Part shown: positions 28,986-60,080 of the stretch, in pieces
Layout of the letters: each line of letters begins with the position of its first letter
How positions within the stretch are numbered: the first letter of the stretch is position 1
Assembly: GCF_004349065.1 (NCBI RefSeq)
Contig: NZ_SMKZ01000030.1
Coordinates: 1 to 64,000 of the forward strand
DNA length: 64,000 nt
Direction of reading: 5' to 3'
Source of the DNA: Jiangella asiatica
Lineage (GTDB): Bacteria > Actinomycetota > Actinomycetes > Jiangellales > Jiangellaceae
Translations under genes and position numbers: made by a program
The notes under the pieces: generated by a model
What the model was told of the DNA's origin: nothing
Databases searched by the model: none
What the model saw: only the letters and a program-made list of their open reading frames with translations

Positions 28986-30371
28986 TCACGGTTGCAGCAG
29001 CCGGTCGAGGTCGGCGATCGACGTAGCGGTGCCCAGCGACCACACCGCGTCCCAGATCGTGTCGGCCCGACCGGCCATCACCGTGTCCGCGAGTGCGCCG
29101 TCGAACTTCGACCGCAGCTCGGCACGGGTCATCGGCCGGTTCGGCGACCCGGGAGGGTGCTCGACGGCGTGCGACCGTGAGGTGCCGTCCTTCATCGTGA
29201 GCGTCAGCCTGATCGGGAACCCCATGTCGTGTCCGCCGCCGAGGGCCGGGTCGGCGTCGACTGACACGTGGTCGCGCAGGAACGAGCGGACGACGTCGTC
29301 GCCGATCGCCGCCTCGCCGAAGGATCCGACGTCGAGCGCGCCGCGCGCCAGCGTGGACACCACCACGTAGGGGATCGAGTGGTCGGCGGTCTCGCGGGTG
29401 CCCGGCGCCATCTTCTCCGGGCTCACCATCAAGGCGGCGGCCTTCGGGTCGAGCCGCAGGTCGACGGCGGCGACATCGTCCAGCCTGGTTCCCGACTCGA
29501 CGAGGTCGACGGCGGCCTGGCCGGCGCTCTGCCCGACCGAACCGCACGGGAAGCGCTTGATCTGGGTTCCCCCGATCCGGTCTGCCGCGCCGCGGTCCGG
29601 CAGCGGCAGCGGCGGTACCTGGTCCGGCGCGAGTCCGAGGGCACGGGCGAAGAACGCGTTCTGGCCGGTGAACGGGGCGGCCGGGCCGCGGGCACCGAGT
29701 GAGGAGAGGATGACCGCGTACAGTGCGTGCCGGCAGGCGTCGGCCGCGGCGAAGGCCTTCCACATGGACAGCTCACCGTGGCGTGCCTGACGGAACGCTC
29801 CATGGCTGGTGACGGCGATGGACACGGCGTGCCGCGCCTGCTGCTCGGTCAGCCCGAACAGGACGGCGGCACCGGCGGCGGCACCGAGCATGGTCACGTT
29901 CACGTGGTCGAACCCGCGCTGGCGGGGAGCGATCCGGTCGGCGGCCTCCATCGCCACCTCGTAGGCCACCGCGACCGCGTCCAGGAACTCGCCGGCGTCG
30001 CTTCCCCGCTCGACCGCCGCGGCGAACAGCGTGGGGATCACGTCGCTGGGGTGGATGGGCTCCATCCCGAAGTAGGCGTCGTTGTAGTCCAGGTACCGGG
30101 TCGCCACACCATTGGCGAGCGCCGCGCCCTCGGCGTCGGTCCGGGTCGACGTGCCCCACACGGTGTGGTGGCCGTCGACGGCCCGGCGGGCGGCGTAGGC
30201 GGCGGCGACGGCGGGCGCGTCGTTGCCCAGCGAGCCGAGGGCGCAGCCGATCGCGTCGACCACGCGCACCAGGATCGACTCGCGCCGCGCCCCATCGGGT
30301 GCTGCGGCGGGTGCGGCGGCGAAGGCCGCGATGGCCTCCAGCCACGGGTCCGTCGTCGTGTCACGGTCCAC
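28986..30371 (-). CDS. MmgE/PrpD family protein (paralogue 5)
   Basis: A 461-residue PrpD-fold protein. The key block is LANGVATRYLDYNDAYFGMEPIHPSDVIPT: His of AHxLDYDD is replaced by Arg and the acidic pair is DYND. FRQARHGELSMWKAFAAADACR is the substrate-side segment. IKRFPCGSVGQSAGQAA replaces the more usual lid motif. It is the last gene of the operon that begins with the universal stress gene. It lies 25 bases after copy 2 of the isocitrate-type dehydrogenase and ends 35 bases from the convergent gntR. Confidence 0.86.
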   Translation of the reverse strand: MDRDTTTDPWLEAIAAFAAAPAAAPDGARRESILVRVVDAIGCALGSLGNDAPAVAAAYAARRAVDGHHTVWGTSTRTDAEGAALANGVATRYLDYNDAYFGMEPIHPSDVIPTLFAAAVERGSDAGEFLDAVAVAYEVAMEAADRIAPRQRGFDHVNVTMLGAAAGAAVLFGLTEQQARHAVSIAVTSHGAFRQARHGELSMWKAFAAADACRHALYAVILSSLGARGPAAPFTGQNAFFARALGLAPDQVPPLPLPDRGAADRIGGTQIKRFPCGSVGQSAGQAAVDLVESGTRLDDVAAVDLRLDPKAAALMVSPEKMAPGTRETADHSIPYVVVSTLARGALDVGSFGEAAIGDDVVRSFLRDHVSVDADPALGGGHDMGFPIRLTLTMKDGTSRSHAVEHPPGSPNRPMTRAELRSKFDGALADTVMAGRADTIWDAVWSLGTATSIADLDRLLQP

Positions 30372-30396: not shown

Positions 30397-31467
30397 TCAG
30401 GTCTCGATCCGCCGGACCAGCTCGTGGCCGAACGCCACGGTGCTCGCGGTTCCGCCGAGGTCTGGTGTCCGGAGCCCGCCGGCCAGGGTCTGCGCCACGG
30501 CCGCCTCGACGAGGCCGGCCGCGGCGGCGCACCAGGGCGCGGCCTTCCGCGCCTGCCACCACCGCAGCAGCATGGCCACGGACAGCACCAGCGCGGACGG
30601 GTTCGCGATGCCGCGGCCCGCGATCTGCGGTGCCGAGCCGTGCACGGCCTGCGCCATGGCGGCGTCGTCGCCGACGTTGAGGCTGGGTGCGAGGCCCAGG
30701 CCGCCGACCATGCCGGCCGTCAGGTCCGACAGGACGTCGCCGCCGAGGTTCTCGGCGACGATGACGTCGAACTCCTCTGGGGCGAGCACCAGCCGGGCGG
30801 CCAGGGCGTCCAGGTGGAGGTCGTCGAAGGTGACCTCCGGCGCCTCCGCGCAGACGGCGCGCGCGGTCTCGAGGTACAGGCCCATCGTCCTGGGCAGCAC
30901 GTTGGCCTTGTGCGCCAGGACGACCCGGCCGCGTCGCTCCCGGGCCAGCCGGACGGCCTCGCGGGTGGCCGCCGCGATCCGCTCCGCGGAGAAGACGCCG
31001 ACAGCCAGCGCCAGGTCGTCGCGCAGCGGCAGCTCGCCGGTGCCGTCGACCATGGACCTGTCGGCGTAGAAGCCCTCGGTGTTCTCGCGCACGACGACGC
31101 AGTCCAGCTCGGGGAAGCGGCACGGGACGCCCGGCAGCGCCCGGGCCGGACGGATGTTGCTGGTCAACCGGAATCGCTTGCGGCACTCGCCGCTGGGGTT
31201 GAGGCCGCCCTCGGCGGGCGGTGGATAGGCGGCGGTGTCGACGGGGCCGAGAATCCAGCCGTCGGTGTCATGAAGCGCCGCGGCCGTGTCGTCCGGGAAG
31301 GTCGTGCCGTGCTCGGCGAGTGCGGCGAACCCGACCGGGAGGTGCTGCGTTTCCACGGCGCCACCGGCCCGCGCGGTCGCCGCCAGCAGGACGCGCTCGG
31401 CGACGGGGACGATCTCCGGGCCGATGCCGTCGCCGGTGAGCACCGCGCAGCGCAGCGGGCCGGTCAC
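30397..31467 (-). CDS. Isocitrate/isopropylmalate/tartrate-type dehydrogenase (copy 2)
   Basis: A 356-residue paralogue of 16558-17730. It has LTGDGIGPEIVPVAERV, RENTEGFYADRS, HKANVLPRTMGLYLE, VAENLGGDVLSDLTAG (metal-binding Asp residues) and HGSAPQIAGRGIANPSA. The predicted reaction is oxidative decarboxylation of a 2-hydroxy-3-carboxy acid (isocitrate, isopropylmalate, homoisocitrate or tartrate). It ends cleanly at RRIET without the tail seen in copy 1. The GTG start overlaps the PrpD-6 stop (GTGA). Confidence 0.88.
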   Translation of the reverse strand: MTGPLRCAVLTGDGIGPEIVPVAERVLLAATARAGGAVETQHLPVGFAALAEHGTTFPDDTAAALHDTDGWILGPVDTAAYPPPAEGGLNPSGECRKRFRLTSNIRPARALPGVPCRFPELDCVVVRENTEGFYADRSMVDGTGELPLRDDLALAVGVFSAERIAAATREAVRLARERRGRVVLAHKANVLPRTMGLYLETARAVCAEAPEVTFDDLHLDALAARLVLAPEEFDVIVAENLGGDVLSDLTAGMVGGLGLAPSLNVGDDAAMAQAVHGSAPQIAGRGIANPSALVLSVAMLLRWWQARKAAPWCAAAAGLVEAAVAQTLAGGLRTPDLGGTASTVAFGHELVRRIET

Positions 31468-32831
31468 GGGCGCGGCCCGGTGTGGGTGAGGGAACGCAGC
31501 ACTCGCCCGACGCGGGGCAGCAGGGTGTCGTCGGCGGTTCGGCAGGCAGTGATCAGCTCCTGCCGTGCCGCGGGTGGCAATGCCAGCGCCATCAGGTCGT
31601 CGGCCTTGTGCTCCACCTCCGCCCGGGTCATGGGGTCGTCCTTGGTCCCGCGGACGGGAAAGACCGTGGCCTCCCGGGTGGTCCCGTCGGCGAGGTCGAT
31701 CTCGAGCCGGGCCTGGCGGATCGGTTCCATGTCCGCGTCGGCGATGAGCGTCGTCCGCTCGAGCAGGCCGGCGACCACGGGGATGCGCGCACCCAGCGGG
31801 TCGTGCGCGGCGGCGAACGTGCAGGTGCCGTCCACCAGGGTGCGGGCGACGAGGTACTGGACGTTGATGTCGGCCATGTCCCGCTGGTCCACGATGCGGG
31901 CGAGGTCCGCGGGCAGGTGGCAGCGCACCGCCCTCACCTCGGCCGGCTCCACGCCACCGGCACGCAGTTCCTCCGCGGCCTGGACGGCGGCCTGGGCGGG
32001 CGAGCCGACACAGTACTTCTTGATGTTCGTCTCCACGACGATCGGCGGGGAGGCCGCGGACCGCTCCAGCGCGGACTCCTCGACGCCGCGTCCGGTCGCG
32101 GTGAAGAAGGTGATCTCCCCGTCGAAGGTGTCCCGGACGCCGGGCCAGCCGGCCGCGACGAGCTCGGCGGCGCGCACCGCGTTCCATGCTGGCATGCCGG
32201 CGAAGACGAAGGCCTTCTCGACGTGGTGCTCGTCGCGCAGCCAGGTGCCCAGCCCGCCGGCCTGCTGGGCGGTGTAGGCGATCAGCGACCGCTGCTGCTC
32301 CGGGTCGAACCCGTGCAGCGCCGCGGCCGCGACCGCACTGCCCCAGAGCCCGCCCATGGCGTGCGTGCTGCCATGGGCTCGGCGCCGCTGCGCCGCCGTG
32401 GACCACGTCATCCAGTTCATCAGCGCACAGGCCTCGTAGCCCAGCGCGATCGCCTCCACGACCTGCCGGCCGCCGCTGCCCAGATGCTCCCCGACGGCGA
32501 TGGCCGTGGGCACGATGGACGCGCCCGGATGGGAGCGGGACGGCTCGTGCGAGTCGTCGGACTCGTCGGCGTGTGCGCAGATCGCGTTGACGAACGATGC
32601 CTCCTCGGGGTGGACACCGGCCTCCTCGCCGACGGCCGAGCAGCGCCCCGCCGCGCGCCTGGCGGCCAGCCAGCGGCTCGCCGTCCGGCCGACGGGCATC
32701 ACCCGGCCGGAAACGACCGCGGCCAGGGTGTCCAGGAGGTGCATTGCGGTGGCCTCACGGGCGTCCGGGGCGTCGATCACCTCGCGCCGTGCCGCCAGGT
32801 GGGCGATGACACGGCCGGTGAGATCGGTCAT
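31464..32831 (-). CDS. MmgE/PrpD family protein (paralogue 6)
   Basis: A 455-residue PrpD-fold protein close to paralogue 4. It has FVNAICAHADESDDSHEP, SHPGASIVPTAIAVGEHLG, EKAFVFAGMPAWNAV and a C-terminal HLPADLARIVDQRDMADINVQYL, which has a match in copy 4 (CRLPPHGARIVDGRHMPDIHLQY). The two copies probably do the same type of reaction on related substrates in separate operons. ATG overlaps the universal stress protein stop (ATGA). Confidence 0.86.
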   Translation of the reverse strand: MTDLTGRVIAHLAARREVIDAPDAREATAMHLLDTLAAVVSGRVMPVGRTASRWLAARRAAGRCSAVGEEAGVHPEEASFVNAICAHADESDDSHEPSRSHPGASIVPTAIAVGEHLGSGGRQVVEAIALGYEACALMNWMTWSTAAQRRRAHGSTHAMGGLWGSAVAAAALHGFDPEQQRSLIAYTAQQAGGLGTWLRDEHHVEKAFVFAGMPAWNAVRAAELVAAGWPGVRDTFDGEITFFTATGRGVEESALERSAASPPIVVETNIKKYCVGSPAQAAVQAAEELRAGGVEPAEVRAVRCHLPADLARIVDQRDMADINVQYLVARTLVDGTCTFAAAHDPLGARIPVVAGLLERTTLIADADMEPIRQARLEIDLADGTTREATVFPVRGTKDDPMTRAEVEHKADDLMALALPPAARQELITACRTADDTLLPRVGRVLRSLTHTGPRP

Positions 32832-40723: not shown

Positions 40724-42115
40724 TCACCGTGGCCAGCCCGCGGCGGACGCGTCCGGCGTGCGCAGCGGCGCGAGGAGCTCCTGGAGGTCGTCCACCGTCT
40801 CCAGCGTGCCGAGCACGGTCCGGACGGCCGCGGTGGTGTCCGGCGAGAGTCCGCCGGAGCGGCAGCAGTCGTCGAACTTGCGCCCGAGCTCGGCGTCGGT
40901 CAGCGCCAGCTCCGGGCCGTTGCCGCGGGGCCGCTCGACGCGCGTGCGCAGCGTCCGCCCGTCGTCGAGGGTCACGGTGACCTCGGCGGGGAAGTGGTCG
41001 GACCCCCAGCGGTCCGCTGGCATGGGCTCGGCATGGACCTTCCGCATCAGCGACACCACCTCCGGGTCGCGGATGGCATCGCCGGAGAAGTCGCCGAGCC
41101 CGACCTGCCCGGTGGACAACGCTCTGGCGGCGACGTACTGCACGCTGAACTTGGCTTCGAGTCCGGTGCTCACCGCCGGCCGGTTCGTGTGCTTCAGGCG
41201 CCTCGGGTGCGTCCAGATGTCGACGCGCCTGATCGCGGCCGGCGCCGGTACCTCGTCGCGCAGGCTGATGGCGGCGTCGGCCACGCCGTGGGTGCTGGAA
41301 CAGCACGGGTACTGCTTGACGGTCAGGCCGGGGTCGATCAGGTCCCAGACTCCCAGCGTGGACACCGCTCGCTCCGCGTGGTACCCGCCGGGGCCGTTGA
41401 ACAACTGCCCGAAGCCCTGGTCGTGCTCGAACGCGTCCACGTTCGCCGTCGCGCCCATGGCGGCCAGCCGCGCGGCGAAGACGCCGTTCTGTGCCGCCCG
41501 CCCCACCTGCAGTGGCTTGGTCGCGGTGCCGAAGTTCGCCTTCATCCCCGCCGCGGTCGAGGCGGCGATGGCGAGGGCCGTCGCGATACCGTCCGCATCG
41601 AGGCCGAGGAGCTTGGCCGCGGCCGCCGTGGCACCGAAGACGCCGAGCGTCGCGGTGGGATGCCAGCCGCGCTCGTAGTGGACGAAGTTGGTCGCCCGGC
41701 CGAGCTTGGCCGCGACCTCGAACCCGACGACGTACGCGGTGAGCAGCTCCGCCCCGGTCGCCGTCCGGGCCTCGGCCACGGCGAGCGCCGCCGGCAGCAC
41801 GACGACGCTGGGGTGCCCCCCGAGCGAACCAGTGCAGTCGTCGTAGTCGAGCGCGTGCCCGATGGAGCCATTGGCGAACGCCGCCGTCTCGACCGCTGTT
41901 CGCCGCTCGTGGCCGATCACCGTCGCCGGACCGTCGCCGGTATCGGCGACGTACCGGTCGACGACCGGCGCGATCGGGCTGCGGGTGCCCGCGACGGTGA
42001 CGCCGACGCAGTCGAGGACGGCTCGCTTGGCGACGTCGACGGCCTGTTCGGGGACGTCTGAGAGCCCGATCCCGTGGGTCCAACCTGCCATGGTCTCGAA
42101 CAACGATGGCTTCAT
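40724..42115 (-). CDS. MmgE/PrpD family protein (paralogue 7)
   Basis: A 463-residue PrpD-fold protein with the most canonical block: FANGSIGHALDYDDCTGSLGGHPS. TATLGVFGATAAAAKLLGL and GTATKPLQVGRAAQNG are typical of bacterial MmgE/PrpD proteins. KQYPCCSSTHGVADAAISL is the lid motif, with the Cys-Cys-Ser-Ser-His segment seen in many family members. The start is ATG 42115 with GGAGG five bases before it. It is the first gene of a two-gene operon with the MFS transporter. Confidence 0.87.
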   Translation of the reverse strand: MKPSLFETMAGWTHGIGLSDVPEQAVDVAKRAVLDCVGVTVAGTRSPIAPVVDRYVADTGDGPATVIGHERRTAVETAAFANGSIGHALDYDDCTGSLGGHPSVVVLPAALAVAEARTATGAELLTAYVVGFEVAAKLGRATNFVHYERGWHPTATLGVFGATAAAAKLLGLDADGIATALAIAASTAAGMKANFGTATKPLQVGRAAQNGVFAARLAAMGATANVDAFEHDQGFGQLFNGPGGYHAERAVSTLGVWDLIDPGLTVKQYPCCSSTHGVADAAISLRDEVPAPAAIRRVDIWTHPRRLKHTNRPAVSTGLEAKFSVQYVAARALSTGQVGLGDFSGDAIRDPEVVSLMRKVHAEPMPADRWGSDHFPAEVTVTLDDGRTLRTRVERPRGNGPELALTDAELGRKFDDCCRSGGLSPDTTAAVRTVLGTLETVDDLQELLAPLRTPDASAAGWPR

Positions 42116-42163
42116 CGAGCCTCCCGGACGCGCGGCGGAGTAGGTCAGGATTGCATTCTGTTT

Positions 42164-42175
42164 ATTGTTGACCGT
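42164..42175. promoter_or_regulatory. Island operator G on the tctB promoter
   Basis: ATTGTTGACCGT (reverse: ACGGTCAACAAT). Rightward it overlaps -35 TTGACC (42168-42173), 18-base spacer, -10 TAGACT (42192-42197). The -10 lies in the perfect palindrome GAGTCTAGACTC (42187-42198). The site is shared with the divergent PrpD-7 operon. Confidence 0.68.
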
Positions 42176-42224
42176 TCGCAAAATCCGAGTCTAGACTCAC
42201 CGGCCAATAGGAAGAGGTGAGACG

Positions 42225-49200: not shown

Positions 49201-50736
49201 ATGGCTACGGTCGGTTTGTCGTCGGCTGGGGCGCGCGCACGATCGCGGAGAAGGCCATCGGAATTCGATGGAGACCGCGGTCGTGGTGATCTCGCGCCTA
49301 CGCTCAGTCGACCCTTTCGCTATCGACGCGCCACAGCGGCCGGTGACGCATTCACCGCATTGATTGCGTTCGTCGCCATCTGGTTGCCGGGCGGCCCGGT
49401 TCAGGCGCCATCGCTGGCGCAGACGCTCGCGGTGAGCACCATCGCGGTGGGTTGGCCGTGCGTGTTGACTGTCAAGACCGCACGCGCGGACCGCCTGTTC
49501 GCCGGCGGTGGCCCGTACGGTGACGTGCTGCGGGCGCTAGCGGCGCTGATCGCGGTGGTGGCCATCGTCTGCGCCGTTCTCGACGTCCGGCTGCTCGGTG
49601 GCCCGTTCCTGGCCGTGTCGGCGATCCTGGTCGCCGGCTCGCTGGCGACCCGGGTCTATGTGCGGCGCCGCCTGCGTGAGCTGCGGCAGCGTGGCCGCGC
49701 GACGCGGCGCACGCTGGTCGTCGGCCCGGCGTCCGGCATCGCCGGGGCGGTGGATCGGTACGGCCGTGACGGGGAACACCCGCTGGCGGTCGTCGCGGCG
49801 TGCGTGGAGGACGACGGCACCGCGCCGCCGGCCACCGTGCCCGTCGTCGGCCGGATCGACAAGGGGCTGCCCGGTCATGACGACGCGGTCCGCGACGAGG
49901 CACTCATCAGGTCGGTCCGCGAGTCCGTCCTGCGGGTGCGGGCCCGGGCGGTGTGCGTGACTCCGGGCTCGGAGTTCACCGGCGACCGGCTGCGGGCACT
50001 GAGCTGGACGCTCGGCGATCTCGGCGTCGATCTGGTCACCGACCTCGGGCTGTCCGACGTCGCGCTGCACCGGATGGGCCTGGGCAGCATGGGGTCGGGT
50101 GTGCTGCTGCACGTCCGGCATGCGCGGCCGGCCGGGCTACGGCGGCTGGCGAAGGCGCTCACCGACCGGCTGCTGGCCGCGGTGCTGCTCCTGGTGTTGT
50201 CGCCGCTGATGCTGAGCATCGCCACGGCGGTGCGGCTGTCCGGGCCGGGCCCGGTGGTCTACCGCCAGGTGCGGGTCGGTCAGGACGGGCTGTTCTTCAC
50301 GATGATGAAGTTCCGCACCATGCACCTGGACGCCGACCTGCGCCGGGCTGAGCTGATGGGCGACTGCGACGGCGACGGGCCGATGTTCAAGATGCGGGAC
50401 GACCCGCGCATCACGCGGGTGGGTCGGGTGCTGCGTAGGTACTCCCTGGACGAGCTGCCGCAGTTGGTCAACGTGGTGCGTGGCGAGATGTCGCTGGTCG
50501 GGCCGCGCCCGGCACTGCCGGAGGAGGTGGCGGCCTACGACACGGTCGCCCGCCGCCGGCTGAGAGCGGTGCCCGGTATGACGGGGCTGTGGCAGGTGAG
50601 CGGCCGGTCGAATCTGTCCTGGGGCGAGACCGTCCGGCTGGACCTTCGCTATGTCGACAACTGGTCCTACAGTGAGGATCTGCAACTGCTGGGCCGGACG
50701 GCGGGGGCGGTGGTGCGCAGCACCGGCGCCTATTGA
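49201..50736 (+). CDS. Polyprenyl-phosphate sugar-phosphate transferase (exopolysaccharide initiation)
   Basis: A 511-residue membrane glycosyltransferase. The N-terminal third has about four hydrophobic segments, followed by a nucleotide-binding-like middle (TLVVGPASGIAGAVDRYGRDG). The C-terminal bacterial sugar transferase domain starts at a further membrane helix (DRLLAAVLLLVLSPLM). It shows VYRQVRVGQDGLFFTMMKFRTM, TRVGRVLRRYSLDELPQLVNV and MSLVGPRPALPEEV. It loads a sugar phosphate on undecaprenyl phosphate to start polysaccharide synthesis. ATG follows a run of G. With the next gene it hints at a cell-surface polysaccharide. Confidence 0.88.
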   Translation: MATVGLSSAGARARSRRRPSEFDGDRGRGDLAPTLSRPFRYRRATAAGDAFTALIAFVAIWLPGGPVQAPSLAQTLAVSTIAVGWPCVLTVKTARADRLFAGGGPYGDVLRALAALIAVVAIVCAVLDVRLLGGPFLAVSAILVAGSLATRVYVRRRLRELRQRGRATRRTLVVGPASGIAGAVDRYGRDGEHPLAVVAACVEDDGTAPPATVPVVGRIDKGLPGHDDAVRDEALIRSVRESVLRVRARAVCVTPGSEFTGDRLRALSWTLGDLGVDLVTDLGLSDVALHRMGLGSMGSGVLLHVRHARPAGLRRLAKALTDRLLAAVLLLVLSPLMLSIATAVRLSGPGPVVYRQVRVGQDGLFFTMMKFRTMHLDADLRRAELMGDCDGDGPMFKMRDDPRITRVGRVLRRYSLDELPQLVNVVRGEMSLVGPRPALPEEVAAYDTVARRRLRAVPGMTGLWQVSGRSNLSWGETVRLDLRYVDNWSYSEDLQLLGRTAGAVVRSTGAY

Positions 50737-50767
50737 CCCAGGGAGTACGACCGCCATTGGAGGCGGC

Positions 50768-51652
50768 GTGACGACGTGGTTGGTGACTGGCGCTGACGGG
50801 CTGCTCGGCCATGACCTGGTGACCATGCTGCGCGCAATCCGGGAGCGGGTGATCCCGACCAACCGCACTGTCCTCGACCTCACCGATCAGCGTGCCGTGG
50901 ACGCGGCGGTGTCGACGATCGCTCGCATCGGTGCGCACGGCTCCGGCTCGGTCGTGGTCAATCTCGCCGGTCGGGCCGACGTCGACGAGGTCGAGGTGGA
51001 CGAGGACCGCGCTCGCGAGGTCAACGTCGCCGGCGTGGCAAACCTGGCGCTGGCCTGCGAGCGGACCGGGCTGCGCCTGGTCCACGTGTCGACCAGCTAC
51101 GTGTTCGACGGCACGCGCTCCGACCCGTATCCCGAGGACGCCCCGGTGAGCCCGACGACGGCCTACGGGCGCACCATGGCCGAGGGCGAGCTGGCGGTGC
51201 TGGAGACCTTGCCGCAGACCGGCGTGGTTCTGCGCACCGGCTGGTTGTACGGCGAGTCCGGGCGCTGCTTCGCCCGCACCATCGCCGCCGCGGCGGCCGA
51301 GCAGGAGTACGTCGACGTCGTCGACGACCAGCACGGCCAGCCGACCTGGACCATGGACCTGGCCGACCGGATCGTCGAGACCGCCCGGCTGCCGGCGGTG
51401 TCCGGCATCCTGCACGCCACCAACTCCGGCTCGACGACGTGGTTCGGCCTGGCCCGCGCGGTCTTCGCCGAACTCGGTCTCGACCCGGCCCGGGTTCGCC
51501 CCATCACCAGCGACGACGTCCCGCGGGTGGCGTTGCGGCCGGCGAACTCGGTCCTGGCCCAGGGCCGCTGGTCGGAGTTCGGGCTGGCGCCGCTGCGGCC
51601 GTGGCGTGACGCGCTCGCCGACGCGGCGCCGTGCGTGCTCGCCAGCGAGTGA
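50768..51652 (+). CDS. dTDP-4-dehydrorhamnose reductase-like protein (RmlD family)
   Basis: A 294-residue extended-SDR protein. VTGADGLLGHDLV is the NADPH motif. VVNLAGRADVDEVE and LVHVSTSYVFDG carry the catalytic Ser/Thr. YGRTMAEGE has the YxxxE-like position where Lys is usual: the segment reads Y-G-R-T-M, so the active Lys is replaced. RTGWLYG and RPANSVLA are RmlD signatures. GTG start, GGAGG four bases before. It may make a deoxysugar for the polysaccharide begun by the preceding transferase. Confidence 0.82.
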   Translation: MTTWLVTGADGLLGHDLVTMLRAIRERVIPTNRTVLDLTDQRAVDAAVSTIARIGAHGSGSVVVNLAGRADVDEVEVDEDRAREVNVAGVANLALACERTGLRLVHVSTSYVFDGTRSDPYPEDAPVSPTTAYGRTMAEGELAVLETLPQTGVVLRTGWLYGESGRCFARTIAAAAAEQEYVDVVDDQHGQPTWTMDLADRIVETARLPAVSGILHATNSGSTTWFGLARAVFAELGLDPARVRPITSDDVPRVALRPANSVLAQGRWSEFGLAPLRPWRDALADAAPCVLASE

Positions 51653-53530: not shown

Positions 53531-53654
53531 GGGAAGCGGTCGGCGAAGGGTGACCGAATAGTGGACGGATTGTCTCGGATGATGGTCGTCGGCGGGAGGA
53601 TCGGTGCCGTTGGTCCTACGCTGGGACGTTCGACGATCTGGCTCGAGGAGACCC

Positions 53655-54425
53655 GTGGCATCGACCGACGCGGCACTGGCCGCCCGCCTCGCCACCGAGG
53701 CGGGCGCGTTGCTGCTCGCGGTGCGTCGCGACCACTCCGGCGTGCACGAGCCGGGCACGGGCACTCGTGAGCTGCGCGACACCGGGGATCGCGCAGCCCA
53801 TCGATTTCTGGCCGGCGAGCTGAGGCGGGAACGCCCGGACGACGCCGTGCTCAGCGAAGAGGCACCCGACGACGCCGCCCGGCTGGCCGCGTCACGGCTG
53901 TGGATCGTCGACCCGCTCGACGGTACCCGCGAGTTCGCCGAAGGCCGCGACGACTGGGCGGTCCACGTGGCGCTGTGGGCCGGCGGCGACCTGGTGGCCG
54001 GCGCCGTCGCGCTGCCCGGGCTCGACACCACGCTGGTGAGCGAGCCGGCACCTGAAGTCCCCGCCCGTCGCGACGGCCGCGTCCGCATCGCCGTCAGCCG
54101 CAGCCGCCCGCCGGCCGTTGCCGAGCACGTCGCGCGGGTACTCGACGCCGAGCTGGTGGGCGTCGGCTCGGCCGGCTTCAAGGCCGCCGCCGTCGTGCGC
54201 GGTGAGGTCGACGCCTACCTGCACTCCGGCGGTCAGTACGAGTGGGACTCCGCGGCGCCGGTCGCCGTCGCCCGTGCCGCGGGCCTGCACGCCAGCCGCG
54301 TCGACGGCAGCCCGCTGCTGTACAACCAGTCCGACCCGTACCTGCCCGACCTGCTCGTGGCCCGCCCGGAGCTCGCCGACGCGCTCCTGGCGGCCGTTGC
54401 TCAACCGGTGAGGTCCGCCCGATGA
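53655..54425 (+). CDS. cysQ: 3'(2'),5'-bisphosphate nucleotidase CysQ / inositol monophosphatase family
   Basis: A 256-residue Mg2+-dependent phosphatase. LSEEAPDD and LWIVDPLDGTREFAEGRDDWAVHVAL give the metal-binding E-E and D-P-L-D-G-T motifs. QYEWDSAAPVAVARAAG is the C-terminal W-D motif. Its place directly before cysD and cysN supports a role in removing PAP, or controlling PAPS, during sulfate assimilation. GTG start with GAGGAG upstream. It overlaps cysD by four bases. Confidence 0.88.
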   Translation: MASTDAALAARLATEAGALLLAVRRDHSGVHEPGTGTRELRDTGDRAAHRFLAGELRRERPDDAVLSEEAPDDAARLAASRLWIVDPLDGTREFAEGRDDWAVHVALWAGGDLVAGAVALPGLDTTLVSEPAPEVPARRDGRVRIAVSRSRPPAVAEHVARVLDAELVGVGSAGFKAAAVVRGEVDAYLHSGGQYEWDSAAPVAVARAAGLHASRVDGSPLLYNQSDPYLPDLLVARPELADALLAAVAQPVRSAR

Positions 54426-55330
54426 CGATCCACGATTACCAGCTCTCGCAGCTCGACCTGCTCGAGGCCGAGGCCGTGCACATCTTCCGGGAGGTGGCCG
54501 CGGAGCTGGAGCGCCCGGTGCTGCTGTTCTCCGGCGGCAAGGACTCCATCGTCATGCTGCGGCTGGCCGAGAAGGCGTTCTGGCCGGCGCCGATGCCGTT
54601 CCCCGTCATGCACGTCGACACCGGCCACAACTTCCCGGAGGTCCTGGAGTTCCGCGACCGGCGGGTCGCCGAGCTGGGCGTCAACCTCGTCGTCGCCTCG
54701 GTGCCCGAAGCCATCGACCGCGGCCTGGTCGCCGAGGAGCCGAACGGCTCGCGCAACCGCATCCAGACGCCGGTGCTCCTGGAGGCGGTCGAGAAGCACC
54801 GCTTCACCGCGTTGTTCGGCGGCGCCCGGCGCGACGAGGAGAAGGCCCGGGCCAAGGAGCGGGTGTTCTCCTTCCGCGACGACTTCGGCCAGTGGGACCC
54901 GAAGAACCAGCGTCCGGAGCTGTGGAGCCTGTACAACGGCCGCATCCACCTGGGCGAGAGCATCCGGGTCTTTCCGCTGTCCAATTGGACCGAGCTCGAC
55001 GTCTGGCACTACATCCAGCGTGAGGGCATCGAGGTGCCGTCCATCTACTACGCACACGACCGCGAGGTGTTCGAGCGCGACGGCATGCTCTTCGCCGCCA
55101 ACGAGTTCTGCCGGCCGCGCGAGGGTGAGACGACGTTCGTCGCCAGGGTCCGCTACCGCACGGTCGGCGACGCGTCCCTGACCGCGGCGGTGAAGTCCGA
55201 TGCCGACACCGTCGAGAAGGTCATCGACGAGGTCGCGTCCACCCGGCTCACCGAGCGCGGCGCCACCCGCGGCGACGACCGCGTGAGCGAGGCGGCGATG
55301 GAGGACCGGAAGAAGGAAGGCTACTTCTGA
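54422..55330 (+). CDS. cysD: Sulfate adenylyltransferase subunit 2
   Basis: A 302-residue ATP-pyrophosphatase-type subunit. The P-loop is LLFSGGKDSIVMLRLAEKAF. HVDTGHNFPEVLEFRD and ALFGGARRDEEKARAKER are standard CysD motifs. With CysN it makes adenosine-5'-phosphosulfate from sulfate and ATP. ATGA overlap with cysQ and a one-base gap to cysN indicate tight coupling. Confidence 0.95.
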   Translation: MTIHDYQLSQLDLLEAEAVHIFREVAAELERPVLLFSGGKDSIVMLRLAEKAFWPAPMPFPVMHVDTGHNFPEVLEFRDRRVAELGVNLVVASVPEAIDRGLVAEEPNGSRNRIQTPVLLEAVEKHRFTALFGGARRDEEKARAKERVFSFRDDFGQWDPKNQRPELWSLYNGRIHLGESIRVFPLSNWTELDVWHYIQREGIEVPSIYYAHDREVFERDGMLFAANEFCRPREGETTFVARVRYRTVGDASLTAAVKSDADTVEKVIDEVASTRLTERGATRGDDRVSEAAMEDRKKEGYF

Positions 55331-55331
55331 G

Positions 55332-56582
55332 ATGGATCTCCTCAGGTTCGCCACCGCCGGGTCGGTCGACGACGGCAAGAGCACGCTGATCGGCCGACTG
55401 CTCTACGACTCCAAGGCGATCTTCACCGACCAGCTGGAGAGCGTGGAGCGCACCAGCCAGCAGCGCGGCGACGAGTACACCAACCTCGCGCTGCTCACCG
55501 ACGGCCTGCGCGCGGAGCGCGAGCAGGGCATCACCATCGACGTCGCCTACCGCTACTTCGCCACCCCGCGGCGCAAGTTCATCATCGCCGACACCCCGGG
55601 ACACATCCAGTACACCCGCAACATGGTCACCGGCGCGTCCACCGCGGACCTGGCGATCGTGCTCGTCGACGCGCGCAAGGGCATGGTGGAGCAGAGCCGC
55701 CGGCACGCGTTCATCGTGTCGCTGCTGCGGGTGCCGCACCTCGTGCTCGCGGTCAACAAGATGGACCTCGTCGACTGGTCGCAGGAGGTGTTCGACGAGA
55801 TCGAGCACGAGTTCTCCGCGTTCGCCACCAAGCTCGACGTCCCCGACCTCACCGTGGTGCCCATCTCGGCGCTGCACGGCGACAACATCGTCAGCCGTTC
55901 GCCGAACATGCCCTGGTACGAAGGGCCGTCGCTGCTGCACCACCTCGAGCACGTGCACATCGCCAGCGACCGCAACCTCGTCGACGTCCGGTTCCCGGTG
56001 CAGTACGTGATCCGGCCGCAGTCGCTGCAGCACGCCGACTACCGCGCCTACGCCGGTCAGGTGGCCGGCGGGGTGCTCAAGCCCGGCGACGAGGTGATGG
56101 TGCTGCCCAGCGGCTTCACCACCCGCATCACCTCGATCGACACCGCCGAGGGGCCGGTCGCGGAGGCGTTCGCGCCGATGTCGGTGACCATCCGGCTCGA
56201 GGACGAGATCGACATCTCCCGCGGCGACCTGATCTGCCGGCCGCACAACCAGCCGTCGGTGGCGCAGAACATCGACGCCATGGTCTGCTGGATGGCCGAG
56301 ACGCCGCTGGTGCCGGGGCAGAAGCTGGCGATCAAGCACACCACCCGGTCCGCTCGCGTGTTGGTCAAGGAGCTGCAGTACCGGCTCGACGTCAACTCCC
56401 TGCACCGTGACGACACCGCCACCCAGCTCGGCCTCAACGACGTCGGGCGGGTACGGCTGCGCACCACGGTGCCGCTGCTGGCCGACGAGTACCGTCGCAA
56501 CCGGTCGACCGGCGGGTTCATCCTCATCGACGAGTCGACCAACCGTACGGTCGGCGCTGGGATGATCACCTCGGCCAGCTGA
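55332..56582 (+). CDS. cysN: Sulfate adenylyltransferase subunit 1 (GTPase)
   Basis: A 416-residue EF-Tu-like GTPase. G1 is GSVDDGKSTLIGRLL, G3 is DTPGH and G4 is NKMD. Beta-barrel domains follow. It drives sulfate activation by CysD with GTP hydrolysis. There is no fused APS kinase domain (CysNC) and no cysC or cysH in the window. It is the last gene of cysQDN. The 75 bases after it carry the inverted repeat before the lasso cluster. Confidence 0.95.
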   Translation: MDLLRFATAGSVDDGKSTLIGRLLYDSKAIFTDQLESVERTSQQRGDEYTNLALLTDGLRAEREQGITIDVAYRYFATPRRKFIIADTPGHIQYTRNMVTGASTADLAIVLVDARKGMVEQSRRHAFIVSLLRVPHLVLAVNKMDLVDWSQEVFDEIEHEFSAFATKLDVPDLTVVPISALHGDNIVSRSPNMPWYEGPSLLHHLEHVHIASDRNLVDVRFPVQYVIRPQSLQHADYRAYAGQVAGGVLKPGDEVMVLPSGFTTRITSIDTAEGPVAEAFAPMSVTIRLEDEIDISRGDLICRPHNQPSVAQNIDAMVCWMAETPLVPGQKLAIKHTTRSARVLVKELQYRLDVNSLHRDDTATQLGLNDVGRVRLRTTVPLLADEYRRNRSTGGFILIDESTNRTVGAGMITSAS

Positions 56583-56657: not shown

Positions 56658-56918
56658 ATGAAACTGCGTAGCGACGGTGTGAGTTGGCGTGAGATCGACG
56701 GCGAGACCGTCATCCTCGACCTTTCCTCGTCCACCTACCTCAAGACGAACCAAGCCGGCTCGACACTGATGCGGCTGCTGGCCGAGGACCGTTCCTCCGA
56801 CGAGCTCGCCGAAGGCCTGGTCGACGCGTTCGGCATTCCAGCCGACCGTGCGCGGGCCGACACCGAGGCGTTCATCCGGATGCTCCGCGAGCGCAAGCTC
56901 CTAGAAGGTTCCGACTAA
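56658..56918 (+). CDS. Lasso peptide RiPP recognition element (B1 / PqqD-like)
   Basis: An 86-residue PqqD-fold protein. VSWREIDGETVILDLSSSTYLKTN gives the beta-strands that grip the leader, and the C-terminal helices follow (SSDELAEGLVDAFGI ... IRMLRERKLLEG). It should bind the Y-x-x-P leader motif of the two precursors and pass them to the B2 protease. ATG 56658 follows a run of six G. It is the first gene of the cluster and lies 42 bases before precursor 1. Confidence 0.87.
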   Translation: MKLRSDGVSWREIDGETVILDLSSSTYLKTNQAGSTLMRLLAEDRSSDELAEGLVDAFGIPADRARADTEAFIRMLRERKLLEGSD

Positions 56919-56960
56919 CGTCCGCATGCACATTCACGATAAGAGATTGGTGGTCTGGTG

Positions 56961-57095
56961 ATGACGTACGAGTCGCCAGTACTGGAGGAGATCGGTTCGG
57001 TTCGTGAGCTGACCCTCGCGGCAAGCGGTCGTGGTCGTTCGGACCAGGTCCAGTGGTTCCGGTACGACAACGATCCCGGTGGCGTTCTCTCCTGA
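56961..57095 (+). CDS. Lasso peptide precursor 1
   Basis: A 44-residue precursor, too short for usual gene calling. The leader has Y-x-x-P at residues 3-6 and ends in ELTL with Thr18 at the usual -2 position. This predicts a 25-residue core from Ala20 to Ser44. Asp28 is core position 9, so a nine-residue Ala1-Asp9 ring is expected, with a 16-residue tail containing WFRY and ending GGVLS. The C-terminal Ser is a candidate phosphorylation site for the cluster's kinase. ATG 56961 is preceded by a weak GGTGG-like site. Confidence 0.85.
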   Translation: MTYESPVLEEIGSVRELTLAASGRGRSDQVQWFRYDNDPGGVLS

Positions 57096-57198
57096 CGCTT
57101 CCGAAACGCGGGAGACGTGCTCGGAACCGCGAATGAGAACTTCACCGAATTCTCCCCACCGCACGTTTCGACACGGTACGCTCTCGCTTGTGGTAAAT

Positions 57199-57243
57199 GC
57201 GAGACTTTGGTGGAAGTCTCGCCGTCCGCCCTCTCTCAGAGGG
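57199..57243 (+). promoter_or_regulatory. Two tandem hairpins between the lasso precursor genes
   Basis: Hairpin 1 is GCGAGACTT-TGGTGG-AAGTCTCGC (57199-57222), a perfect nine-pair stem. Hairpin 2 is CCCTCT-CTC-AGAGGG (57229-57243), a perfect six-pair stem. The strong ribosome site AGGGGGG of precursor 2 follows eight bases later. They could stabilise or attenuate the message and set the ratio of the two precursors. Confidence 0.55.
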
Positions 57244-57264
57244 CACCAGAAGGGGGGCACGGAA

Positions 57265-57405
57265 ATGGCTTATGAGCCACCCGTGGTGGAAGAAGTGGGT
57301 TCCGTTCGCGAGCTGACCCTCGCGCACGGCGGCCAAGGTTCGGCGGACCAGATTCTCTGGTTCACCTGGGGCAATGACCGCCCGCCGGGCGGCGGCCTGT
57401 CCTGA
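57265..57405 (+). CDS. Lasso peptide precursor 2
   Basis: A 46-residue paralogue of precursor 1, with nearly the same leader (Y-x-x-P at 3-6, GSVRELTL at 12-19). The predicted core is 27 residues from Ala20 to Ser46, again with Asp28 at core position 9 for an Ala1-Asp9 ring. The tail has ILWFTW and ends PPGGGLS. Features shared with precursor 1 are DQ-x-x-WF after the ring, an ND pair and the final Leu-Ser. Net charge differs: the ring of precursor 1 has two Arg, this one has none. Strong AGGGGGG ribosome site. Confidence 0.87.
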   Translation: MAYEPPVVEEVGSVRELTLAHGGQGSADQILWFTWGNDRPPGGGLS

Positions 57406-57493
57406 CGCCGTCACACTCACGAAGCGTGTGGAGCCGTTCGCACCGTGGGGGCGGCTCCACGCCGTGAGCCGGCAGAACTCCGGGGGCCTGTTC

Positions 57494-58678
57494 ATGGGTG
57501 GAAAGAGGCCGGCGCCGTCGTTCGCGGGCACCGGAGTCGAAACGCCGTACTATCGGCTGTCCGCATTCGAGCTGGCGACGTCCTGGGTGCCCGGCGTGCG
57601 GCCGCTGGGGCCGCTGCCGGACACCGTCTCGTCGGCCAGGATCGCTTTCGAGAGCGCCGTCCGCCCGGCGCTGCTCCGCCCGCCCTGCTACGTCTCGTTC
57701 TCCGGCGGACGTGACTCGTCCGCTGTCCTGGCGGTCGCCACGCACATCGCCCGCCGCGAAGGACTCGCCGACCCCGTCCCTGTGACCGAGGTCTACCCGG
57801 GTATCGACGCGGCTGATGAGTCGCACTGGCAACGGCTGGTGATCGACCACTTGGGGCTGCACGAGTGGACCCGCATCTCGATCAGCGGTGAGAGCGACCT
57901 GCTCGGTGCGGCGGCCCAGGCGAGTCTGCTGCGTCGCGGTGTGCTCTGGCCGCCGTCCTTCCATGTCAAGGACGCCCTCTTCGCAACGGCGTCCGGCGGC
58001 ACCCTGCTGACTGGTGAGGGCGGCGACGAGGTCATCGGCCCTCGCCGCGTGACGCCGGTGACGCTGCTGGTGCGCAAGCGCCGGCGACCGCGGCCGGCAC
58101 TGCTCCGCGCGGTCACCGCCGCCCTGGCCCCCGCGCCACTGCGCCGAGCCTGGCTGCGCCGCGACATCGCCCGCAGCGACCAGCAGCCCTGGCTCCGTCC
58201 GTCGGTGGCGCGTGAGCACCGTCGGCAACTGGCCGCCGACGAGGCCGCGGAGCCGTTGTCCTGGGGCCGCGCGATCCGCTGGGTCCGCCACCGTCGCGCT
58301 GTCGACGCCGTGCTGACCAACTACCAGGCGCTGGGCACGGAGCACGACGTCGTTGTCGGCCATCCGTTGCTCGACGACGGCTTCCTGGCGGCACTCGCTG
58401 GTGCGGGCGGACGCTGGGGCTTTGCCGGCCGCACGGCGCTGATGCGGATCCTCTTCGCCGACGTCCTGCCGGACGAGATCCTGCGCCGCTCTACGAAGGC
58501 GAGCTTCGACCGCGCGTACATGGGTGAGGCCACCCGCGACTTCGCCCGCGGCTGGGACGGCACCGGCGTCGACACCGACCTCGTCGACCCCGAGACACTG
58601 CGGGCGGCGTGGCTGTCCGACCACCCGTCCACGCTGAGCGGCACGTTGCTGCAGCAGGCCTGGCTGGCGAGCCGATGA
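57494..58678 (+). CDS. Lasso cyclase (asparagine synthetase-like, C protein), short form
   Basis: An ATP-dependent enzyme that adenylates the ring Asp so that Ala1 can close the macrolactam. The P-loop SFSGGRDSS is at residues 68-76. LTGEGGDEVIG and the C-terminal helical region match the asparagine synthetase domain. At 394 residues it is about 100-200 shorter than usual lasso cyclases, because only 67 residues precede the P-loop and the glutaminase-like domain is missing. An in-frame GTG at 57428 would add only 22 residues. The stop overlaps the B2 start (ATGA). Confidence 0.85.
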   Translation: MGGKRPAPSFAGTGVETPYYRLSAFELATSWVPGVRPLGPLPDTVSSARIAFESAVRPALLRPPCYVSFSGGRDSSAVLAVATHIARREGLADPVPVTEVYPGIDAADESHWQRLVIDHLGLHEWTRISISGESDLLGAAAQASLLRRGVLWPPSFHVKDALFATASGGTLLTGEGGDEVIGPRRVTPVTLLVRKRRRPRPALLRAVTAALAPAPLRRAWLRRDIARSDQQPWLRPSVAREHRRQLAADEAAEPLSWGRAIRWVRHRRAVDAVLTNYQALGTEHDVVVGHPLLDDGFLAALAGAGGRWGFAGRTALMRILFADVLPDEILRRSTKASFDRAYMGEATRDFARGWDGTGVDTDLVDPETLRAAWLSDHPSTLSGTLLQQAWLASR

Positions 58679-59121
58679 TCCGCGCGGTCCCGCTTCGGGA
58701 GTGGCCGGCGCTGCTGGCCGCGGCCGGCGTCGCTCTCGTCGTCGAGGTGGGCCTGCGGGTCACGACGCTGCCGCGGCTGGCCCGGCTGCTCGGCGCCCCG
58801 CTGCGAACCGACGACGGCGGCGACCTCATGCCGCCGTCGACGCCGGCTCGCCTCGGACCCTCGCTGACGCCTGCGACCCGACGGCGGCTGCGGGCTGTGC
58901 GCCGCGTACTGCGGCACTGGCCGTTCGGCGACACCTGCCTGCGTCGGGCTCTGGTGAGCGGCCACGTGCTGCGCCGGCTCCGCCCCGTCCTGCGGGTCGG
59001 CGTGGCGAAGGTGGACGGGCGTATCCAGGCGCACGCCTGGCTGGAGATCGACGGGGTGAGCCTCGACCCGGCCGGCGCGGAGCTGTACCAGACCTTCGAG
59101 TCGATCGGCGGTGCCCGCTGA
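58675..59121 (+). CDS. Lasso peptide leader protease (B2, transglutaminase-like)
   Basis: A 148-residue protein with the Cys-His-Asp triad of the lasso B2 family. Cys88 is in FGDTCLRRALV, His120 is in QAHAWLEIDG, and Asp126 probably completes it. An N-terminal hydrophobic helix (residues 8-27) may anchor it to the membrane. It removes the leader after Leu19 so that the core can fold and cyclise. It starts inside the cyclase stop and is followed directly by the kinase gene (TGATG overlap). Confidence 0.88.
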   Translation: MIRAVPLREWPALLAAAGVALVVEVGLRVTTLPRLARLLGAPLRTDDGGDLMPPSTPARLGPSLTPATRRRLRAVRRVLRHWPFGDTCLRRALVSGHVLRRLRPVLRVGVAKVDGRIQAHAWLEIDGVSLDPAGAELYQTFESIGGAR

Positions 59122-60080
59122 TGACGCTGGAGCGGCAGTTTCTCTACGGCCTGTCGGTCGCCTCCGAGGTGCCGCTCTACCAGGAACGACCGGCTCTGGC
59201 CGAAGGACGGCCGGACGTGGTGATCCGGTGGGGACGGCCGGTGCCGCGGCGCGACGAGCCGCCGGCCGGGCAGATGCTGGCGCACCTGGAGCTCGACCAG
59301 CCGTACTACACCTTCACCCGGACCGGCGACGACGGCTACCGACTGCGGTTCTACCGGACCTGCGACTTCGTCGTCGAGCCGGGCCTGCGGACGGTGCGGG
59401 TGGAGCTGGTCGCCGGCGCCGACCCGGGGATCGCCGGCATCCTCACCGCCGGTGCGCTGCTGTCGTTCCTGCTCACCGTCCGCGGCGAGGTCGTGCTGCA
59501 TGCCAGTGCCGTGCAGGTCGGCGACGGCGCGGTGGCGTTCGTCGGCCGCTCCGGCATGGGCAAGTCGACCATGGCGACGCTGCTGTGCGCCGACGGCGGC
59601 GCGCTCGTCACCGACGACGTACTCCGGCTGGACGGCGACAGCGGACGGTTCGTGTGCCGGCTCGGCGCGACCGAGCTGCGGCTGCGCAAGTCCGCGGCCG
59701 AGCTGGTCGAGCAGTTCGACGTCGCGCCCGCCAGCCGGGTCACCAGCGACGCGCGCGACGCCCTTCGCGTGGCCCCGTCGACGACGGACCGGGTGCCCCT
59801 GGCCGGCATCGTGTTCCCGCTCCCGGACCACGAGCGCGACACCGTCGAGGTCACCCGGCTGGGCGCCATGGAGGCCCTGATCACGCTTTTGCGGTTCCCG
59901 CGGCTGCTCGGCTGGACCGACCCGGCCATCCTGGACCGTCAGTTCCAGCAGGCCGGCGAGATCGTGGAGCGGGTGCCGGTCTTCATCGCCCGGGTCCCCT
60001 GGGGCCCGCCGTTCCGTCCCGATCTGGCACCCGCGATCGCCGCCGCCGTCGGCGTCACCGCTCCAGCCGCCCCGAAATGA
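59121..60080 (+). CDS. HPr kinase-like protein of the lasso cluster (predicted precursor kinase)
   Basis: A 319-residue protein. The Walker A motif GRSGMGKST is at 142-150, after VLHASAVQVGDGAVAFV, the layout of HPr-kinase-type P-loop proteins. VTDDVLRLDGD gives the metal-binding Asp residues. A first domain of about 120 residues is of unknown type. The homologous kinase of the paeninodin cluster phosphorylates the C-terminal Ser of its precursor, and both precursors here end in Ser. The stop codon TGA (60078-60080) is supplied by repeat copy 3. Confidence 0.82.
   Translation: MTLERQFLYGLSVASEVPLYQERPALAEGRPDVVIRWGRPVPRRDEPPAGQMLAHLELDQPYYTFTRTGDDGYRLRFYRTCDFVVEPGLRTVRVELVAGADPGIAGILTAGALLSFLLTVRGEVVLHASAVQVGDGAVAFVGRSGMGKSTMATLLCADGGALVTDDVLRLDGDSGRFVCRLGATELRLRKSAAELVEQFDVAPASRVTSDARDALRVAPSTTDRVPLAGIVFPLPDHERDTVEVTRLGAMEALITLLRFPRLLGWTDPAILDRQFQQAGEIVERVPVFIARVPWGPPFRPDLAPAIAAAVGVTAPAAPK

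Follow-up and report, generated by a model that had tools for sequence, protein, structure and literature searches.

The 64,000-nucleotide stretch of the Jiangella asiatica genome analysed here (the window, in contig 58 of a genome of 7.03 Mb) carries a lasso-peptide gene cluster with a predicted peptide kinase at 56658-60080. The question raised by this locus is what such a cluster makes in a soil actinomycete, and why it lies among genes for polysaccharide synthesis. Sequence comparison led us to predict a phosphorylated lasso-peptide cluster of the paeninodin/pseudomycoidin type, tied to a polysaccharide locus, and we give this reading a probability of about 0.68. The cluster consists of six genes:

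56658..56918, + strand: RiPP recognition element (RRE, B1), PqqD-like, 86 aa (PF05402 52.7 bits, cut-off 23.4)
56961..57095, + strand: precursor A1, 44 aa (NF033521 31.5 bits, cut-off 19)
57265..57405, + strand: precursor A2, 46 aa (NF033521 33.4 bits, cut-off 19)
57494..58678, + strand: short macrolactam cyclase C, 394 aa (PF00733 61.2 bits, cut-off 21; SGGRDSS loop)
58675..59121, + strand: leader protease B2, 148 aa (NF033537 62.1 bits, cut-off 33; PF13471 52.9 bits)
59121..60080, + strand: HprK/PEPCK-fold peptide kinase K, 319 aa, predicted C-terminal Ser kinase by motif and fold

The first-pass annotation of this DNA had named an RRE protein, precursors of 44 and 46 residues, a cyclase, a B2 protease and an HPr-kinase-like protein, and both the open reading frames (ORFs) and the profile matches agree with it. 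Pfam cut-offs are passed by RRE, C and B2, and NCBIfam cut-offs by B2 and both leaders; on RRE, NF033530 gives 49.5 bits, under its cut-off of 70. The tight packing described then holds for C-B2-K (overlaps of 4 bp between C and B2 and of 1 bp between B2 and K), but not for the precursors, which are flanked by gaps of 42, 169 and 88 bp. Identical order of these six genes was seen in 8 of 12 sampled Jiangella genomes, that of the window included, so the gene set is more than chance; RRE is the conserved first cluster gene across Jiangellaceae. Cyclase matches at E <= 0.001 were obtained in 26 of the 393 genomes of the class (19 of these at E < 1e-60) and, within the genus, in 8/12. A scan of the cluster stretch for a sigma-70 promoter, a terminator or an Rfam family found none. 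Plasmid-borne horizontal spread was considered and rejected: C had no PLSDB match at E <= 1e-3, and K matched just 11 PLSDB records, all at less than 60% identity.

Both precursors show the annotated Y-x-x-P leader motif, Thr(-2), Asp9 of the core and terminal Ser. The predicted core of A1 is AASGRGRSDQVQWFRYDNDPGGVLS (25 residues, tail of 16) and that of A2 is AHGGQGSADQILWFTWGNDRPPGGGLS (27 residues, tail of 18), each with a predicted Ala1-Asp9 ring. If Thr stands at -2, the tail lengths given earlier are right, but such tails, then called unusual, are common among relatives. A1 and A2 are both found in all 8 cluster-bearing Jiangella genomes, A2 as its own orthologue line. The core of A1 is near-invariant while its codons drift (pN 0.028 vs pS 0.357, as raw proportions of differences among the 8 Jiangella sequences); A2 is more variable and retains WF and the G-Leu/Ile-Ser end. 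The pattern suggests two separate products, each under purifying selection; comparison likewise supports the two 9-residue rings annotated before. Asp9 is present in A1, A2 and close relatives; together with Thr(-2) and a small residue 1 it is kept in loci near that of the window, and some distant loci from metagenome-assembled genomes (MAGs) deviate.

Two further kinds of precursor were seen beside short cyclases. MAGs of Acidimicrobiales and of other Actinomycetota encode, beside a short cyclase, peptides that resemble precursors and whose cores measure about 11 residues, e.g. ...LTETIVIVAQGETS (L060:7292-7387, L061:6151-6246 and 6347-6442, L071:7299-7394); they have an acid at position 9 and two residues beyond it, a tail too short to thread. 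Five loci of Amycolatopsis and Prauserella (L070, L076, L086, L088, L104) have two short cyclases apiece and two precursor types, one ending in -GDLTFS and the other in -GDNDAYS or a near form.

We infer the following order of steps. RRE would bind the Y-x-x-P leader of each precursor, K would phosphorylate the last Ser of the linear precursor before threading, B2 would cleave after Leu(-1), and the short cyclase would close Ala1-Asp9. A PF14907 nucleotidyltransferase encoded beyond the window would then probably put a sugar on the phosphate, and an MsbA-like exporter encoded beside it may carry the product out.

Polysaccharide setting, exporter and nucleotidyltransferase

The genes that tie the cluster to a polysaccharide locus lie upstream of RRE in the window and downstream of K beyond its end:

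49201..50736, + strand: Bac_transf polysaccharide-initiating sugar phosphotransferase (PF02397 208.5 bits; sole PF02397 match in the genome)
50651..51652, + strand: RmlD-like dTDP-sugar reductase (PF04321 272.8 bits)
53604..54425, + strand: CysQ-like phosphatase, linked neighbour (PF00459, synteny)
54422..55330, + strand: putative CysD, linked neighbour (PF01507, synteny)
55332..56582, + strand: putative CysN, 75 bp upstream of RRE (PF00009, synteny)
contig 65215-67137, - strand: MsbA-like exporter (59% identity to the exporter beside a related cluster in Tessaracoccus, and its closest homologue in this genome)
contig 67137-68402, - strand: PF14907 nucleotidyltransferase (124.3 bits; the single PF14907 match of the genome)

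We take the PF00459 neighbour to be CysQ-like, the PF01507 neighbour to be CysD (sulfate adenylyltransferase subunit 2) and the PF00009 neighbour to be CysN (its GTPase subunit). Downstream, beyond the exporter pair, follow genes for an epimerase, PIG-L, Wzy_C, GT2 and a polysaccharide pyruvyl transferase. Both Jiangella and Phytoactinopolyspora retain, as far as the retrieved stretches extend, the gene order glmU-prs-rplY-pth-Bac_transf-...-cysQDN-lasso, and each of the 8 Jiangella genomes tested has one PF02397 match, 4.7-22.5 kb from the cyclase.

Relatives were taken as the best 79 loci of a contig scan. Linkage was counted in 59 genomes, 10 of the class sample and 49 that hold 50 of the best 79 loci; they were hand-chosen and are mostly isolates. 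In 30 of the 59, PF02397 and the short cyclase are no more than 30 kb apart, against 1.29 expected by random placement; this and our other counts take no account of shared ancestry. The count omits five second cyclase copies, whose contigs have no PF02397, and the result is unchanged by them. The linked set comprises ten named genera (Jiangella, Phytoactinopolyspora, Nocardioides, Rhodococcus, Gryllotalpicola, Pseudonocardia, Terrabacter, Actinophytocola, Georgenia and Microbacterium), one further genus and three MAGs. As a control, other B2 genes (places above the Pfam cut-off) have PF02397 within 30 kb in 2/78 genomes of the class, where 73 of the 78 have PF02397, but assemblies are often fragmented and B2 and PF02397 share one contig in just 24; one of the two linked genomes (G033) has itself a kinase and a Ser-ending precursor (L167). 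In Bacilli, paeninodin-like and LPP clusters have been described in capsular polysaccharide loci, with a role called unknown in that account (PMC13381572). By sequence comparison, ours is the same link in a second phylum, Actinomycetota, for which we recognised no reporting paper in our literature searching.

Many actinobacterial lasso peptides are antimicrobial. The Jiangella peptides might be ordinary secreted antibiotics whose place beside polysaccharide genes is functionless, inherited hitch-hiking. Much of the linkage is vertical, Jiangellaceae forming a single synteny block, and 29 of the 59 genomes (e.g. Amycolatopsis, Isoptericola, Tessaracoccus, Occultella) showed no PF02397 in that 30 kb range, which also counts against the association that we propose. 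The linkage recurs, however, across the genera and MAGs named above and is reported for another phylum (PMC13381572), it is seen in no more than 2/78 genomes with control lasso loci, and the A1 core is almost frozen, unlike a diversifying weapon. We thus regard hitch-hiking as unlikely. Since the cluster lies in the polysaccharide locus and is inherited with it, the peptides likely act on the cell surface or within the matrix, and the data hint that they are there for that surface and not as antibiotics.

The absence of an own transporter, stated in the first-pass annotation, is true inside the window only: the exporter lies about 1.2 kb past its end, and the exporter/PF14907 pair lies 5-8 kb downstream of K. 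That pair, the polysaccharide setting and the truncated cyclase had all been overlooked, so the earlier reading was incomplete. Exporter homologues (52-68% identity) share a contig with the cyclase in 13 of 14 genomes, and 54 of the 59 have PF14907 at most 30 kb from a short cyclase, a count made without a control set. Of 142 ORFs called in 20 loci, 119 entered a tally of neighbours in other genera: 14 match PF14907, 18 ABC transporters and 11 the commonest glycosyltransferase model. PsmN, the nucleotidyltransferase of pseudomycoidin, is presumably a member of PF14907 as well. It is reported to add hexoses to the phosphorylated Ser (PMC9266682, PMC8498205). From the PF14907 gene in the locus and, by analogy, this hexose transfer, the Jiangella product is probably more than a plain phosphopeptide, that is, phosphoglycosylated. 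Going further, the peptides could be components of the cell surface instead of free, secreted antibiotics: the PF14907 enzyme, with the sugar-phosphate machinery encoded nearby, would use the phospho-Ser as an attachment point to join the lasso peptide to sugars or to the polysaccharide itself, giving glycoconjugates; this extension is tentative and, in our estimate, doubtful.

Two further observations concern neighbouring genes. In L110:7092-13593 (G113), and similarly in L108 (G059), a cassette is inserted between cysN and RRE, with genes for an AMP-ligase-like protein, a pyridoxal-phosphate decarboxylase, a carrier protein, a GNAT-like protein and two GT2 proteins (some names given by eye). 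Elsewhere in the window, five ORFs lie in 24 kb (18644-20014, 23362-24780, 28986-30371, 31464-32831, 40724-42181); by eye we take them to be of MmgE/PrpD type and the adjoining genes to encode a tripartite tricarboxylate transporter.

The kinase and the C-terminal serine

K is assigned as a kinase by motif and fold, because its score against PF07475 (23.0 bits) is under the cut-off of 33.3. In an alignment of 58 close kinases (strong matches at E < 1e-60, weaker kinase-type matches being left out), H127, K148, D165 and D166 are invariant in 58/58, and the spacing of the catalytic residues in K equals that of the BsfK motif, H148-G163-G166-G168-K169-S170-D186-D187 (PMC10368454). For paeninodin-type kinases, His-Lys-Asp-Asp are reported as required and the C-terminal Ser of the precursor as the target (PMC9266682). 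In the structure model of K (pLDDT 96.5), residues 1-313 align to ATP-type phosphoenolpyruvate carboxykinase (PEPCK) with Z 16.8 and a root-mean-square deviation (rmsd) of 3.9 over 265 residues. PEPCK is present and HprK itself absent among the matches listed in the structure comparisons, and a PDB sequence search with K gave nothing convincing.

The C-terminal Ser as kinase target is supported by comparison. It ends 72 of 82 distinct precursors whose locus has a kinase match no more than 6 kb away, and 9 of the other 10 have Ser among their last three residues (GSR, SAG, ST, SK, SE and SEA ends), against 0 of 32 precursors from 29 actinobacterial lasso loci without a kinase match (Fisher p 7e-20, shared ancestry ignored). 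The 82 come from the best 79 loci of the contig scan and from class-sample loci, 11 pattern-called ORFs having been removed by eye. The ends of the 32 were likewise read by eye, in 29 of 55 fetched control loci; "without a kinase" means no kinase match at E <= 1e-4 within stretches of 4-13 kb, and no precursor was counted in 16 of the 55. A kinase match was present in 9/55 (L156, L160, L167, L169, L170, L173, L174, L175, L177), among which the precursors of L167 and L169 end in Ser and that of L170 in Gly. The earlier proposal of a phosphorylated last Ser may accordingly be kept as to its target, whereas the plain +80 Da product that it foresaw is, with PF14907 in the locus, probably not the final one.

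Several findings weigh against the paeninodin-like reading. On its family score the kinase call is weak, and K is 27% identical to the kinase of a paeninodin-family cluster across about half its length. Neither A1 nor A2 has NF033524, the model for paeninodin precursors, among its matches. Moreover, Ser ends occur in short-cyclase loci with no kinase in the fetched stretch (4/4 precursors) and in L176, a short-cyclase locus without a kinase match among the 55 fetched (2/2 precursors, one peptide being shared with the four), so the terminal Ser may track the short-cyclase clade as much as the kinase.

K could also phosphorylate Ser3 of the ring, the C-terminal Ser being conserved for another reason. 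BsfK and LppK substrates are modified at Ser3, the motif spacing of BsfK is equal (PMC10368454, PMC13381572), and one precursor of each pair has Ser3, namely A1 in the 8 Jiangella genomes, a further point against the proposed target, and A2 in a MAG of a sister genus (L030). The other precursor of each pair is without it, however (Gly3 or Asn3 in Jiangella A2, Asp3 in A1 of L030), which makes Ser3 less likely as a common target, and, among core hydroxyl residues, only the last Ser occupies corresponding places in A1 and A2; it is also the one kept in 72/82. We consider phosphorylation at Ser3 clearly improbable, and prefer the C-terminal Ser.

Some loci show other arrangements. In L093, L094 and L099 (Georgenia, Microbacterium, Cellulosimicrobium) a kinase is present and the precursors end in -GSR, with Ser penultimate. 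The actinobacterial loci L156, L160, L173, L174 and L175 have RRE, B2 and kinase matches and no cyclase match in the fetched stretch; perhaps they resemble LPP loci, or a full-length form of the cyclase escaped the model.

The short cyclase

The single Pfam match of C is PF00733, the synthetase domain; no amidotransferase (GATase) domain was found in C, even in the longest frame of 434 aa, and the alternative start at 57374 that opens this frame was rejected as a source of one. The lasso cyclase models score far under cut-off (NF033561 33.4 of 300, NF033535 16.3 of 525), and a PDB sequence search with C gave no match. The structure model (pLDDT 94.8) aligns from residue 16-18 through the C-terminal end: to TsnB9 161-604 (Z 19.1, rmsd 4.1, 316 residues), with C residues 16-394 to human asparagine synthetase 157-524 (6gq3; Z 16.9, rmsd 4.0, 257 residues), and with residues 18-394 to beta-lactam synthetase 156-488 (1mc1; Z 15.3, rmsd 4.4, 252 residues); unlike the other rows, that of beta-lactam synthetase 1jgt_B starts at chain residue 26. 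Because of these alignment ranges, C is, on the model, a complete synthetase domain with the amidotransferase domain missing. The paeninodin-family cyclase of Priestia pB2.3, in contrast, has 646 aa and a GATase_7 domain (75.1 bits).

The same form recurs in the relatives. The open frame upstream is 130 aa or less in 73 of 85 short-type domains (median 48 over all), and a hidden amidotransferase domain was rejected for 10 of the remaining 12, which were scanned and gave no GATase match, L060 and L049 lying outside the scan. In a quick tree, one branch with support 100 splits 66 short from 19 full-length domains, several full-length rows having long branches. Among the best 79 loci, short-form loci are all from Actinomycetota except one MAG labelled Gemmatimonadetes (L101). 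By these comparisons the short cyclase is a broad clade, almost wholly actinobacterial; our narrow literature searching found no paper describing it. Near two short-cyclase clusters lies a full-length asparagine-synthase-like protein with GATase (L116:6726-8651, Phytoactinopolyspora; L038:8541-10829, Nocardioides).

That a cyclase without the amidotransferase domain does not thread its substrate, so that linear phosphopeptides (LPP-like) or unthreaded branched rings result, would fit the lack of this domain throughout the clade and the existence of linear polyphosphorylated relatives without a cyclase (PMC13381572), but is improbable, since loci near that of the window retain Asp9, Thr(-2) and a small first residue and the synthetase domain retains its ATP loop, as if ring closure were still selected, and B2 is kept too.

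Relation to known phosphorylated lasso peptides

The closest likeness is with paeninodin (Paenibacillus dendritiformis) and the Priestia pB2.3 cluster (L121), which share with Jiangella RRE, B2, cyclase, HprK-like kinase and exporter; paeninodin also has the C-terminal Ser of A1 and A2, and paeninodin-like clusters have polysaccharide genes nearby. The differences are considerable: besides the 646 aa cyclase, as against 394 aa and no GATase_7 in Jiangella, the gene order is C-A-K-B1-B2-D in Priestia and B1-A1-A2-C-B2-K, with the exporter apart, in Jiangella; the Priestia precursor matches NF033524 (57.7 bits), whereas A1 and A2 match NF033521; there is one precursor in Priestia and paeninodin and two in Jiangella; and the hosts are Bacillota and Actinomycetota, respectively. 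The locus of pseudomycoidin (psm of Bacillus pseudomycoides) has, as in Jiangella, a kinase and a nucleotidyltransferase gene, but Jiangella has two precursors, an exporter and nucleotidyltransferase as a separate convergent pair, and a short cyclase, the psm cyclase itself being outside this comparison. BsfK and LppK share motif and spacing (BsfK) or the polysaccharide setting (LPPs) with K and its locus; they differ in modifying Ser3, in the lack of a cyclase (LPPs) and in the Asp end of BsfA. Kinase-less actinobacterial lasso clusters have the split RRE and B2 and the leader motif in common with Jiangella, but their cyclase frames measure 566-667 aa in 11 of the 12 loci with one found (443 aa in L172), none of the 32 precursors ends in Ser, and PF02397 is within 30 kb in 2/78 genomes, one of them the kinase locus. 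As judged from sequence, the Jiangella cluster is mechanistically paeninodin/pseudomycoidin-like, yet not a member of the paeninodin family, because NF033524 is unmatched and the cyclase is without the usual domain.

The passages on phosphorylated lasso peptides in two reviews name Firmicutes and Proteobacteria only (PMC8498205, PMC9266682), and a deltaproteobacterial case was added later (PMC10368454). The short cyclase raises the question of why lasso cyclases have an N-terminal amidotransferase-like domain, since a broad clade appears to manage without it. If the glycoconjugate reading were true, the peptides would belong to a widespread system of Actinomycetota and Bacillota, with its own short-cyclase clade in Actinomycetota. 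For Bacilli, what phosphorylated lasso peptides do has been named as an open question (PMC13381572). The clade described here belongs to another phylum, shows the same link to polysaccharide genes and has a near-frozen peptide and, in Jiangella, single-copy partner genes, so that deletion would allow this role to be addressed.

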